This document shows, piece by piece, positions 4,154-42,978 of a stretch of DNA of 64,000 nucleotides. The first letter of the stretch is position 1. Each line of letters starts with the position of its first letter. A program made the translations under genes and the position numbers. The DNA comes from Oscillospiraceae bacterium (GTDB taxonomy: Bacteria; Bacillota; Clostridia; Oscillospirales; Acutalibacteraceae). The DNA lies in NCBI GenBank assembly GCA_009779995.1, contig WRDW01000005.1:1-64000 (forward strand). Direction: 5' to 3'. The notes below the pieces were generated by a model. The model did not search any database, had not been told where the DNA came from, and saw nothing but the letters and a program-made list of their open reading frames with translations.

Positions 4154-4783
4154 CTATTTTATGCGCTTCGGGCGGAAGATATGCGGCTCCAGCCACTGGA
4201 ATAGAAGCATTGCCAGCAGTGCGCAGGCGAGGCCCGCAAGAACCCCTCCAAGTATGTCCGTGGCGTAGTGCACGCCCAGGTACAGCCGCGAAAAGGCGAT
4301 CAGCGCCGCCAGCACAATCCCAATGTACGATACCCAGCGCGCGTTCCCCACCCATTCTTTTTTCGAGCCGAAACACCACGCCAGCGCCGCCGCGAGGGAG
4401 GCCCCCGTGTGCCCGGAGGGGAAGGACATGTCGCTGGGCATACTTTTGGCCAGCGCGCCGCCCGGGAACACAGCCCGGTACGCCTGCATCCACCAGTCGA
4501 TCTCCAGGTCATAGGGCCGCGGCCGGGCGAAGAGCGGCTTCATGGCGACATTGACGATGAGCAGCTGAAAAATCAGCGCGAAGACCATGATCAGCCCGAT
4601 TTTTCTCGTCTTCTTGAAAATCAGGAAGCCCACTGCCAGCGCGATCCAGAACCACCCGCTGTTGCCCAGCATGGTGACGAAGTTGAAGAACCAGTCCAGC
4701 GCGGGGCTGGTCCCAGGGCTGAACACGCGGCCTATCCACTGGAAGGCGGCGGCGTCGAAGGAAAGGAAGGGTTCGAAGAGCAT
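4154..4783 (-). CDS. PAP2-family phosphatase (membrane)
   Basis: Motifs KPLFARPRP, PSGHT, SRLYLGVHYATDILGG. Confidence 0.88.
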   Translation of the reverse strand: MLFEPFLSFDAAAFQWIGRVFSPGTSPALDWFFNFVTMLGNSGWFWIALAVGFLIFKKTRKIGLIMVFALIFQLLIVNVAMKPLFARPRPYDLEIDWWMQAYRAVFPGGALAKSMPSDMSFPSGHTGASLAAALAWCFGSKKEWVGNARWVSYIGIVLAALIAFSRLYLGVHYATDILGGVLAGLACALLAMLLFQWLEPHIFRPKRIK

Positions 4784-4794
4784 GAGTGGCCTCC

Positions 4795-5224
4795 AATGCT
4801 GAATTATGAATGCTGAATGCTGAATTATTTTTTCTGCGACTTACATATTGCTGTCAATAGCCGCAGAATCTCTTGGCAGTCCTTATTTATGCTTTCGTAC
4901 TCTTTTTGCTCCAGCTCTTTGCTTGCATACATTATATCAAGCCAATATTCTGTTTCACTTGCTTCCTTCAGAGCTATACTCATTTTTGCATAGAAGTCTG
5001 GTTTGCTCTGTCCGCGTACCGCCTCTTTCACATTGGCGCCTATACTGGTTCCGCTACGTAAAAGCTGTCTACATAAATCATATTCAACTTTTCTCAGCCG
5101 AAGAAGCTTATACAGCCGAATAATCCGAATAGCAAAGGTTCTACTTTTGTCTACGATAATATTTCCATCAGCCACAAACTATCCTCCTAAATAATTCAGC
5201 ATTCAGCATTCATAATTCAGCATT
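4795..5224. mobile_element. 430-bp unit with 36-bp perfect terminal inverted repeats enclosing a four-helix-bundle gene
   Basis: 4795-4830 AATGCTGAATTATGAATGCTGAATGCTGAATTATTT is the exact reverse complement of 5189-5224. Confidence 0.7.
4825..5175 (-). CDS. four helix bundle protein (S23/IVP-like, TIGR02436 type)
   Basis: KSRTFAIRIIRLYKLL...LLRSGTSIGANVKEAVRGQSKPDFYAKMSIALKEASETEYWLDIM. Confidence 0.88.
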   Translation of the reverse strand: MADGNIIVDKSRTFAIRIIRLYKLLRLRKVEYDLCRQLLRSGTSIGANVKEAVRGQSKPDFYAKMSIALKEASETEYWLDIMYASKELEQKEYESINKDCQEILRLLTAICKSQKK

Positions 5225-6480
5225 CAAAACGCCTCCCCGCAGACCTCCTCCAGGCACCACATCCCCCGCTCGAAGGTCTCACGGTCTATCCACATGCCGT
5301 TGGTGAAATCCGGCACGGGCACCGGCGCGCCGCCCATGGCCGCGCTTTGCTCGCTCAAACAGGTGATGGCCATCCAGGCGGCTGTGTCATAGACGTCGAT
5401 TGGGGGGGCAACTTGACGTTGCACTGCATCTACAAATGCCGACAAAACCAGGTAGTCCATCCCGCCGTGCCCGCCGAAGTGTACGCCCTCGTCGTGGTAG
5501 GCCTTCCAAAGGGGGTGCTCGTACTTCTCGATGTAGTCGCTGAAGTATTCCCAATCGCCTGTCCAGCTGGAATGCGGCGAGACGCCGTCGATGTGGATGG
5601 CGTCGCCGAAGGGGGCCTCCAGGAAGATGCCCTTCGTGCCCTGGATGCAGTAGTCGCGGCTGTAGGGCCGGGGCAGAGTGCAGTCGTGCGTCAGGCGTAT
5701 GGTCTCGCCGTTGGCGCAGGCGATGAGGGTATCCACGATGTCGCCCTCATTGAAGACTTGATTTGCCAGGTAGTAATCCGGGCCCTTCTCTCTCACGATA
5801 AACTCATGCAGGCCCCGGGCTTTCGAAGCCACGCTGTTGACTGCCAAAAAGCGATTGCCTCTATTGATGCGCAGTAATTTCGCAATCGGCCCGAGCTGGT
5901 GCGTGGGGTAGAGCTCCCCGTTGCGTCCAATAAAGTTGCGCAGCCGCCCGTGGCGATTTTCTTTCCCGTAGCCGATCTCGTCGCGCAGATCGTGGCGGTA
6001 GCCGCCCTCGCAGTGCACGATCTCCCCGAAGATGCCCTGCCGCGCCATGTTGAACAGTGCCATTTCTTTTCTGTCGTAGCAGCAGTTCTCCAGCAGCATA
6101 CAGAACCTGCCTGTTTCTTCAGAGGCGCGCACCATCTGCCAGCACTCCTCCGTGCTCGCTGCCCCGCCGACCTCTATCGCCACGTCGCAGCCCGCGCGCA
6201 TGGCGTCCACGGCGATGCGCCCGTGGGTGATCCACGTGGAGCAGCACAGCACGGCGTCGAGGTTCTCTTTCGAGAGCATCTCTCTGTGATTGCGATATAC
6301 AGCTGGCGTTATGCCCGTCTTCTCTTCCACGATCTTTGCGGCTTCCTGTGCCCTGTCCTCGTAGACGTCGCACACGGCGGGCACAGCCACGCCCGCGATG
6401 CTGAGCATCTCGCGCATCTGCCCCCTGCCGCGCCCGCCGAGCCCTACGCAGCCGATGCGGATGGTTTTTATCTCGTTCAT
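5224..6480 (-). CDS. Gfo/Idh/MocA family oxidoreductase
   Basis: IRIGCVGLGGRGRGQMREML Rossmann motif; stop codon abuts the inverted repeat at 5224. Confidence 0.9.
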   Translation of the reverse strand: MNEIKTIRIGCVGLGGRGRGQMREMLSIAGVAVPAVCDVYEDRAQEAAKIVEEKTGITPAVYRNHREMLSKENLDAVLCCSTWITHGRIAVDAMRAGCDVAIEVGGAASTEECWQMVRASEETGRFCMLLENCCYDRKEMALFNMARQGIFGEIVHCEGGYRHDLRDEIGYGKENRHGRLRNFIGRNGELYPTHQLGPIAKLLRINRGNRFLAVNSVASKARGLHEFIVREKGPDYYLANQVFNEGDIVDTLIACANGETIRLTHDCTLPRPYSRDYCIQGTKGIFLEAPFGDAIHIDGVSPHSSWTGDWEYFSDYIEKYEHPLWKAYHDEGVHFGGHGGMDYLVLSAFVDAVQRQVAPPIDVYDTAAWMAITCLSEQSAAMGGAPVPVPDFTNGMWIDRETFERGMWCLEEVCGEAF

Positions 6481-14010: not shown

Positions 14011-14039
14011 TTGACACCCACCCCCTCATGCTGTATAAT
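14011..14039 (+). promoter_or_regulatory. promoter of thiamine operon
   Basis: TTGACA-17 bp-TATAAT. Confidence 0.7.
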
Positions 14040-14082
14040 AATTAAGCATTCAAAATTAAGCATTCAGCATTGAGGTAACACC

Positions 14083-22024: not shown

Positions 22025-22065
22025 TAAGCTCCCTTCGGTCATGGCAGCTGCGCTGCATTCAGCAT

Positions 22066-22830
22066 TCATAATTGAGAAAACATGTCGTCCATGCCGTAGC
22101 GCCCGGCGGGCTTGTCCGCAATCCAGCGCGCGGCGGCCAGGCAGCCCGCGGCGAAGATGCGCTTGCTGTAGGCCCGGTGGGTGAGCTCCACCACCTCGTC
22201 GAAGCCCGCGAAGATCACCGTGTGCTCGCCCGGCACGGTGCCGCCCCGGATGGAGTGGATGCCGATCTCGTTGCCGGGGCGCGCCTCGCGGCGGCCCTGC
22301 CGCTCGTAGACGTAGCCCCGCGGCGCGGCCAGCCCTTCGTTGACGGCCTCGGCCAGGATATACGCCGTGCCGCTGGGCGCGTCCACTTTTTGGTTGTGGT
22401 GGGCCTCGACGATCTCGATGTCGAAGCCCTCGCCCAGCACCTGCGCCGCCTGTTTCGCCAGCTGCTTGAGGAGCAGTATCCCCAGGGACATATTGCCGCT
22501 CTGGAACACCGGAATGTGTTTCGCGGCGTCATCGAGCATGGCGTATTCGCCCTCGCCGTAGCCGGTGGTGGCCAGCACGGCGGGCAGATTCTCCCGGATG
22601 CAGTATTCCAGCAGGGTGGGCAGCAGGGAGGGGTGCGAGCAGTCGAGCACCACGTCCGGTTTAACGTCGTCCACGTCGGCGGGGCTGGGAAACACGGGAA
22701 AGGGCAGGGACGTGCGCCCCGGGGCATGGTCAATGCCCGCGGCGATGCGGGCGTCCCGCCGGTTTTCGCAATATTCGATCACGGCACGGCTGAGGTTGCC
22801 ATTGCAGCCGCTGAGTAAAATATTTAACAT
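22066..22830 (-). CDS. dapB: 4-hydroxy-tetrahydrodipicolinate reductase
   Basis: MLNILLSGCNGNLSRAVIEY...VEAHHNQKVDAPSGTAYILAEA. Confidence 0.93.
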   Translation of the reverse strand: MLNILLSGCNGNLSRAVIEYCENRRDARIAAGIDHAPGRTSLPFPVFPSPADVDDVKPDVVLDCSHPSLLPTLLEYCIRENLPAVLATTGYGEGEYAMLDDAAKHIPVFQSGNMSLGILLLKQLAKQAAQVLGEGFDIEIVEAHHNQKVDAPSGTAYILAEAVNEGLAAPRGYVYERQGRREARPGNEIGIHSIRGGTVPGEHTVIFAGFDEVVELTHRAYSKRIFAAGCLAAARWIADKPAGRYGMDDMFSQL

Positions 22831-41563: not shown

Positions 41564-42901
41564 ATGAACGAAAGGCGGAGATGTGTGGTACGAAGGCTCT
41601 GCGCAATTTTCTTTATCGCGATTTTAGCTGTGCTCTGCGTGTGCCCCTTGGCCGCGGCGCGGGAGGTCGGCTGGCGGGTGGAGATCCCCCTGGAGGGCCT
41701 GCCGGAGCGCCTGGACAAGGTGGATAGCGGCAAGACCCTGGACCTTGTCGCCCTGGCGGACGGGAGTTACACCCTGGCCCTGGTGCCGCTGCGCATGGAG
41801 GGCAAGAGCTGGGTGCGCGTCGTACTCACGAAGGGAAGCGGCTTCTTCGGCCTGTGCCTGCTGGCCACGCGGGAGGAGTTCGGCAAAATGGAGGCCCTGG
41901 CCGTGGACGTCACCGAAGGGGGCGCGCTGCGCTTCACCGCCCTGCCGGGGGATACATCGCTGGCGGCTGTGGAGCTGCCCGTCACGCTGGCGGGCGAGTG
42001 CCGCCTGCTCCCCCTGGCGCAGTCCCAGGGCGTCACGGTGCTCCCCGTGGAGGCCCCCGAGGAGGAGCCCGACGCCCTGCCCGCGGACGCCGCGCCCACC
42101 GAGCCCGCCGAGGGCCCGCCCCCGCTGCGCCTGCATCCCGGCGCGTACATACTGGCTTTGGCTATCGCGATATTCGCGCTTGCCCTGCTGGTCATGGGAA
42201 CCATGTATAGGCGGCGCGCCGCCGCGCTTGTCGTTCGCGCAAAAGCGTTAGCCGCAGCCCTGTGGGCGAAGAGGCCCGTGCGCAGTGAATTGCCCGATGA
42301 GCCCGATGCGCCAGAAGATGAGCCGGAGGAGAAAAACGGCCCCTCGCGGGACACGCGGGAGCTGCCCCGCATCGTGCCGGGGCCGTACCTCCCCGGCCTG
42401 CGGGTGACGGCCCCGCCCGAGCGCGCCCTGGTGCGGCGGATCACCATGCGCACCGCCTGGGAGGCCGCCGCCGAGCCCCCGCAGGGGAACATGCCCGAGC
42501 AGGTGAACGCCTACTTCCTCGGCAGGGGAGCCCTGCCCGCCGGGGGGCGCTTCCGCACCGTGGGCCTGCGCAACCGCGACGCCCTGCTCCAACAGGAGGG
42601 CGGCGTGCGCCCGCTGTTCGCGCCCAACCCCCGGGGGCAGATCTTCTCCCTGGAGGAGGAGACCGGCGGGCTCTACCTCCACGTGGACTGCTTCGCCCCG
42701 CCCGGCTTCCTGCTGCAGCCGGTGCTGCGCAGCGTGTGCCTGGAGAGCGTGTTCGCCCTGGAGGACAGGCGCGGCGCCCCCCTGCGCCTGGAGGCCGCGC
42801 CGGGCCGCGCGATCCTGGGCATCGTCCCGGCGCGCACGGCCCGCACGGAATCCGGCTTCATCCTCACGGAGAAGGGCAGTTTGGTAATCGGGGAGAATTA
42901 A
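41564..42901 (+). CDS. hypothetical secreted/membrane protein
   Basis: Signal peptide, central TM LALAIAIFALALLVMGTMY, 445 aa. Confidence 0.7.
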   Translation: MNERRRCVVRRLCAIFFIAILAVLCVCPLAAAREVGWRVEIPLEGLPERLDKVDSGKTLDLVALADGSYTLALVPLRMEGKSWVRVVLTKGSGFFGLCLLATREEFGKMEALAVDVTEGGALRFTALPGDTSLAAVELPVTLAGECRLLPLAQSQGVTVLPVEAPEEEPDALPADAAPTEPAEGPPPLRLHPGAYILALAIAIFALALLVMGTMYRRRAAALVVRAKALAAALWAKRPVRSELPDEPDAPEDEPEEKNGPSRDTRELPRIVPGPYLPGLRVTAPPERALVRRITMRTAWEAAAEPPQGNMPEQVNAYFLGRGALPAGGRFRTVGLRNRDALLQQEGGVRPLFAPNPRGQIFSLEEETGGLYLHVDCFAPPGFLLQPVLRSVCLESVFALEDRRGAPLRLEAAPGRAILGIVPARTARTESGFILTEKGSLVIGEN

Positions 42902-42978
42902 TGCACAATGCACAATGTACAATGTACACGGCCTCTATGGCCTTTGGGGCCGCAAATGCACAATTGAGGGGGGCGTTT

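Follow-up and report, generated by a model that had tools for sequence, protein, structure and literature searches.

The 64,000-nt stretch of Oscillospiraceae DNA analysed here (the window) carries a 430-base unit in which one small four-helix-bundle gene lies between mirror-image arrays of a 7-base repeat. We consider this element to be probably a compact, apparently mobile IVP gene enclosed by inverted ARTKMNN arrays, and part of a mobile repeat system reliant on enzymes of the host; IVP is our name for the PF05635/TIGR02436 protein, i.e., the protein of 23S rRNA intervening sequences. The element is the gene-bearing member of a two-part family, the other members being intergenic gene-less palindromes of ~100 bp and single arrays, and this family, which is widespread and has no known transposase of its own, may explain the abundant, unexplained 7-base repeats of bacterial genomes. 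The features of the window are as follows:

4154–4783, minus strand: PAP2 phosphatase gene, the downstream neighbour; its Shine-Dalgarno sequence (4790–4794) directly abuts the outer edge of the element.
4795–4830, plus strand: the element's 3' outer arm, downstream of IVP; it is built of the heptamers AATGCTG/AATTATG, is perfectly complementary to 5189–5224 and contains the IVP stop codon (4825–4827).
4825–5175, minus strand: IVP gene; 116 aa, GTG start, PF05635/TIGR02436, predicted four-helix bundle (AF2 pLDDT 92) with an Avd-like fold.
5183–5188, minus strand: Shine-Dalgarno sequence AGGAGG of the IVP gene, directly adjoining the right arm on its inside.
5189–5224, minus strand: the element's 5' outer arm, upstream of IVP; its first unit, read together with the two bases before it, is TGAATGC, which supplies the stop codon of the upstream gene.
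5224–6480, minus strand: Gfo/Idh/MocA gene (glycosyl hydrolase 109-like), the upstream neighbour; stop TGA at 5224–5226 on the element border, the pair with PAP2 being kept without the element in congeners.
14039–14071, minus strand: one-armed array without a gene, in the heptamer flavour of the IVP arms; it lies upstream of another gene.
22055–22075, minus strand: a further array without a gene, again in the flavour of the IVP arms; 40 nt away lies a shorter one on the same strand (ATTCAGCATTAAG).
42901–42929, plus strand: AATGCAC/AATGTAC heptamer array between two genes, with AATGCACAATT repeated ~30 nt further on; its flavour differs from that of the IVP arms.

The two arms are 36 nt long, 100% complementary and 358 nt apart, the sequence at 4795–4830 being AATGCTGAATTATGAATGCTGAATGCTGAATTATTT and its exact complement standing at 5189–5224; the perfect inverted heptamer repeats described in an earlier note on this DNA are thus real. 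That note had also placed the right end of the unit on the Gfo/Idh stop codon, and the TGA at 5224–5226 indeed shares its A with the last base of the arm. With its own stop codon inside the left arm, the unit is fitted to its site to the base. This site lies between two protein genes (Gfo/Idh and PAP2), not inside a 23S rRNA gene, and no target site duplication was seen there. In the predicted RNA fold, which is 7 SD better than shuffles (z = −7.15), the arms pair as an uninterrupted 36-bp terminal stem whose loop holds the gene. Bacteria often carry tandem heptamer repeats (PMC6344855), and one might suppose that the arms arose by slippage or misassembly with the gene between them by accident. 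Such an arm pair within 1 kb has an expectation of ~1e-14 in 64 kb, and the same architecture recurs at 112 of 119 loci, finished plasmids included; this explanation is already refuted by the cross-phylum association and we give it practically no weight.

The enclosed gene encodes the four-helix bundle that had been read from its sequence, and its proposed kinship with the proteins of 23S rRNA intervening sequences is borne out. Over its whole length the protein matches PF05635 (3.7e-26; 91.9 bits versus the Pfam cut-off of 33.8 bits) and TIGR02436 (3.5e-30; 104.4 bits versus the NCBIfam cut-off of 24 bits), and the predicted model resembles the IVP structures 2rld (TM 0.90) and 2gsc (TM 0.78). 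The suggested resemblance to the Avd proteins of diversity-generating retroelements (DGRs) also holds for the model, with TM 0.70–0.73 and probabilities of 0.99–1.00 against chains of 4dwl and 8ub7, Avd within the DGR ribonucleoprotein among them, though E-values are 0.07–0.45; identity between IVP and Avd is ~13%. Pairs of relatives show dN/dS of 0.03–0.15, i.e., purifying selection, and the protein is therefore kept. No catalytic motif or family was matched by IVP. A role in anti-phage defence was rejected since no PADLOC family matches, as was a phage origin, given a marginal PHROG match only and the presence of IVP in just 2 of 50,697 phage records. To our knowledge, no function has been assigned to IVP proteins in three decades.

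Heptamer arrays accompany IVP genes of several phyla. We compared 119 loci, comprising 80 close relatives, 29 diverse loci of the order, 8 plasmid loci (Nostoc, Euhalothece, Bernardetia, and Monoglobus, finished plasmids among them) and loci of the genus, with a few near-duplicates included. Mirrored period-7 arrays were present upstream at 112 and downstream at 109 of the 119. Beside the 80 related genes, period 7 (and 14) alone was enriched (autocorrelation 0.404 versus 0.244 in control flanks), and of 145 control segments a single one had a long period-7 run. At 81% of the 79 testable loci among the 80 close relatives, the gene was spanned by an exact inverted match of 13 nt or more, compared to 22% when arms of different loci were paired. 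Arms are alike within a locus and not between loci (LCS 16.3 versus 9.8; p = 4e-23).

The units follow one rule, which in gene direction reads 5'-ARTKMNN, with position 4 being G or T. The ART part fits 111 of 112 upstream arrays (null expectation ~37%), and over 1085 units the frequencies are 0.95 for A, 0.97 for R, 0.97 for T, and 0.92 for K. Of 153 variable arrays, 139 show no change at position 4 other than G to T or T to G (p = 1e-79). Such swapping is unlike a mutational spectrum; under drift, transitions would be expected to dominate. Between the window genome (G000) and its closest relative (G004), exchanges of G and T, or of A and C as their complement, make up 12 of 15 arm changes. 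In palindromes of the window genome, the units of one arm recur in the other in a different order; the arms appear to keep their heptamer vocabulary more faithfully than exact pairing.

Among the loci without arrays, six form one clade and carry other repeats of ~20 nt. These order-level loci (L131, L134, L143, L148, L150, and L153) constitute a supported IVP clade lacking heptamers (SH-aLRT 99), and in several of them IVP is flanked by ~20-nt units made of an 8-mer and a mini-hairpin (AGCTAAAT..., ATATCAC...). Apparently, this is a second repeat type tied to IVP.

The search for other copies that had been proposed for this element was productive. The window genome holds ~35 further AATKMTK sites, gene-less or one-armed, many of which are palindromes of ~95–115 bp with a short core, and some cores are common to several sites. 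It also holds a second IVP copy, 57% identical and with AGTTGAC arms, situated in an apparent ABC-transporter operon, where it follows the upstream stop codon and precedes the next Shine-Dalgarno sequence. AGTTGAC arrays are dispersed in this genome as well; their reversed pattern is itself a match and hence useless as a chance control for AGTTGAC counts. The AATKMTK and AGTTGAC arrays thus match the two resident IVP copies, which predicts that G002, whose IVP has AGTGATT arms, should hold AGTGATT-type arrays. AGTKRTT matches numbered 39 in G002, 12 in G005, 2 in G003, and 0 in the window genome. In an order-wide survey, IVP was found in 18 of the 23 genomes with at least 10 AATKM matches, compared to 132 of 297 overall (Fisher p = 0.0008). 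No IVP was detected in the other five array-rich genomes of the survey, nor in the array-bearing G003 and G004 (the latter 80% complete). Beyond 75% protein identity the coupling of flavour to protein is weak (0.31 versus 0.21 shuffled), and a strong co-speciation of IVP and heptamers was toned down on that account.

Comparison of empty and filled sites, which the earlier note had recommended, points to movement. The Gfo gene is present in 12 of 14 genus genomes. In G004, where it is 90% identical, Gfo and PAP2 lie 26 nt apart without IVP or array, and seven further congeners keep the pair close together, again lacking both. The Gfo C-terminus reads ...EYFNS* in G004 versus ...EAF followed by the arm-supplied stop in the window genome. 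Absence of the element from eight congeners that keep the gene pair means that it was either inserted here or repeatedly lost, and insertion in this lineage would be the simpler reading. Gene-less members vary likewise: one palindrome is filled in the window genome and empty at the orthologous G004 site, and the nusG-rplK spacer has a palindrome in the window genome, is empty in G003 and bears another flavour (TAGAYNT) in G004. This third palindrome flavour occupies, in G004, sites orthologous to three loci with AATKC palindromes in the window genome (L171, L176, and L178). Three palindromes are common to the window genome and its sister species, with changed units, so turnover is slow. All these comparisons are between species, with one genome per species, mostly MAGs, and a window genome 66% complete. 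Within that frame they strongly suggest mobility as the cause of the presence and absence of elements; heptamer flavour may also change in place, and array conversion could then account for part of the pattern.

Further copies sit in unrelated surroundings. IVP genes 95% identical occur at unrelated flanks (L043/L057), as do IVP paralogues within one genome, and in near-identical pairs IVP identity exceeds flank identity by a margin that we judge moderate. Target duplications were found at three of 98 loci, all insertions at tRNA-Leu, where the tRNA gene's 5' end recurs on the far side over 14, 19, and 23 bp; one of the three adjoins what looks like an earlier element. The remaining ~95 loci, including the window's, had none, and general target-site duplication was rejected. 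As to the outcomes that would have spoken against a mobile unit, no relative has the repeats at this site without the gene, and almost every IVP gene is accompanied by heptamer arrays. The claim that movement was recent fares less well, Gfo/Idh identity to the closest relative being no higher than 90%. Nor does the perfect match of the arms speak for a recent event, since what arms preserve at other sites is the heptamer vocabulary and not the order of the units.

Two observations concern individual palindromes. The core loop of a shared palindrome (L167 versus L205) is inverted between two species with its arms in place. At L169 (~1005–1040), a heptamer array inside a coding sequence is translated in frame in both species, and a second arm, after the stop codon, occurs only in the window genome.

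The same comparisons bear on whether the arrays are instead kept for regulation and rarely move, with IVP binding hairpins in operon mRNAs. Positions between stop codon and Shine-Dalgarno sequence in operons, a bias for the sense orientation, the conserved protein, the retention of arrays at some orthologous sites, and the translational regulation proposed for TAACTGA arrays (MacGregor, 2015; PMC4679880) would all agree with such a role. However, sites are idiosyncratic between congeners, sister species show different flavours at the same site, and in the eight congeners that have no element at this site the gene pair is not visibly altered. We regard a regulatory system as rather unlikely.

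Orientation and context of the insertions bring in another candidate. IVP elements are mostly sense with their neighbours (82:16 and 82:14, versus 142:64 for neighbours with each other). Eight loci lie directly 5' of tRNA-Leu (L144, L152, L137, and five more) and six directly 5' of tmRNA (L058, L064, L066, L093, L097, and L099), all of them sense. A period of 7 shifts the reading frame with each unit; stop codons in all frames occur in the upstream arm at 39% of loci and in the downstream arm at 6%. The sense bias and the positions 5' of structured RNA genes, together with the strong predicted terminal stem of the window element, would suit an RNA-level passenger, i.e., an insert like an intervening sequence that survives because RNase III removes its hairpin, with IVP a by-product and spread achieved by horizontal transfer and homologous recombination of flanks. 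The intervening sequence of Coxiella (428 nt, with a 28-bp stem and heptamers upstream of its ORF) is cut by RNase III in vitro (PMC4990558). Yet IVP is under purifying selection, gene-less palindromes match in heptamer flavour, insertions occur at unrelated flanks, and a hairpin has no need of G/T-only unit changes; we think a passenger unlikely, if the first alternative to consider.

A third alternative is movement in trans, either by a reverse transcriptase, as in DGR/Avd-like retro-mobility, or by a Y1 transposase, as for REPINs, encoded elsewhere in the genome. The Avd-like fold of IVP, the REPIN-like layout, and the variable length of the tRNA-Leu duplications, which resembles target-primed insertion, could be read this way. 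Against it, among 21 array-bearing genomes 13 lack RVT_1 and 8 lack Y1_Tnp, and neither is present in six that are 93–97% complete and have 3–6 IVP genes (G117, G158, G170, G212, G223, and G279). Neither RVT_1 nor Y1_Tnp was found in the window genome, itself 66% complete. The six near-complete genomes indicate that a dedicated reverse transcriptase or Y1 enzyme in trans is no general requirement, unless the arrays are relics, and as obligatory partners both went unsupported. The trans-acting reverse transcriptase that the earlier note had suggested looking for thus seems not to be required, and we hold movement by such enzymes to be quite improbable.

The system that we favour, in which mobile repeats rely on enzymes of the host, would work in a manner similar to REPIN/RAYT. 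A resident protein gene would sit between copies of the repeat that it serves and the dispersed repeat pairs would be its non-autonomous dependants, with a non-enzymatic, Avd-like four-helix bundle replacing the transposase. An IVP oligomer would most likely bind the heptamer arrays, as single-stranded DNA or as a long RNA hairpin, and guide host enzymes of replication, repair or RNA processing, which would copy the hairpin to further positions between genes, adjoining stop codons and upstream of Shine-Dalgarno sequences or structured RNA genes. The hairpin of the transcript, if cuttable by RNase III as in 23S rRNA intervening sequences, would keep the insertion harmless. We infer recognition of heptamers by IVP and hairpin copying by host enzymes from their co-occurrence, the G/T rule, and the analogy with REPIN/RAYT and Avd; the Coxiella intervening sequence suggests that RNase III may excise the element here.

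Known systems share parts of this architecture. As in REPIN/RAYT (Bertels and Rainey, 2011; PMC3116915), a single protein gene is flanked by inverted short repeats, many gene-less inverted hairpin pairs and decayed singletons lie in intergenic DNA, and the repeat flavour matches the resident gene. Unlike RAYT, the protein is a four-helix bundle without a Y1 transposase domain, and Y1_Tnp is missing from the six near-complete array-bearing genomes; the repeat is an array of 4–5 heptamers where the REPIN has one short palindromic REP. The 23S rRNA intervening sequences with S23p/IVP of Coxiella and Leptospira (PMC4990558) are similar in their length of ~430 nt, IVP ORF, and terminal complementary stem, and heptamers (GACAGAT) have been noted upstream of the Coxiella ORF (PMC4990558). 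In contrast, the present element stands between protein genes, has ARTKMNN arms on both sides and is accompanied by dispersed gene-less copies. DGR Avd is alike in its fold, whereas neither a reverse transcriptase nor a template/variable repeat pair occurs at the element's locus. MITEs are also short, palindromic and non-autonomous; this family, however, has no matching transposase, mostly lacks target duplications, and has arms of tandem heptamers that turn over unit by unit.

Among the tandem repeats of prokaryotic intergenic regions, heptamers are reported to be the most abundant, with nothing to indicate what they do (PMC6344855). Intergenic arrays are described for Xanthomonas (GGGAATC, with 70–75 inverted pairs) and Nostoc (GGGGAYT) (Rehm, 2015; PMC4692102) and for Beggiatoa (TAACTGA; MacGregor, 2015; PMC4679880). 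Compared by published unit alone, these fit ARTNNNN when rotated or complemented (AATCGGG, ARTCCCC, and AGTTATC, respectively), and Xanthomonas is also the source of the IVP protein XCC0516 (2gsc). Unlike the present family, these arrays were described without a link to IVP and judged not to be associated with mobile elements. More tentatively than for the element itself, with rather less than even confidence, we propose a phylum-spanning ARTKMNN mobile repeat, driven by non-enzymatic IVP and core host enzymes only, that may underlie the heptamer arrays of Xanthomonas, cyanobacteria, Beggiatoaceae, and others, and of which the rRNA intervening sequences would be special cases. rRNA IVP elements and unexplained heptamer arrays were known separately. 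In the open PMC literature, the scope of our search, no link between IVP and heptamers was found beyond those in the Coxiella intervening sequence; joining them into one system is new relative to that literature. If true, the strict association of IVP with heptamers, the one shared rule, and the genome-specific matching would give both a common explanation, in the form of a mobile repeat system without a transposase; a synthetic array and one 116-aa protein would then be enough to put the question to the test.

IVP genes have also been reported in cas loci and in the 16S/23S rRNA of CPR bacteria. At four of our loci (L135, L140, L151, and L194, the last on a Monoglobus plasmid), IVP elements lie inside restriction-modification operons, either between hsdS and hsdR, as annotated, or upstream of an apparent type III res gene, as read from the sequence.
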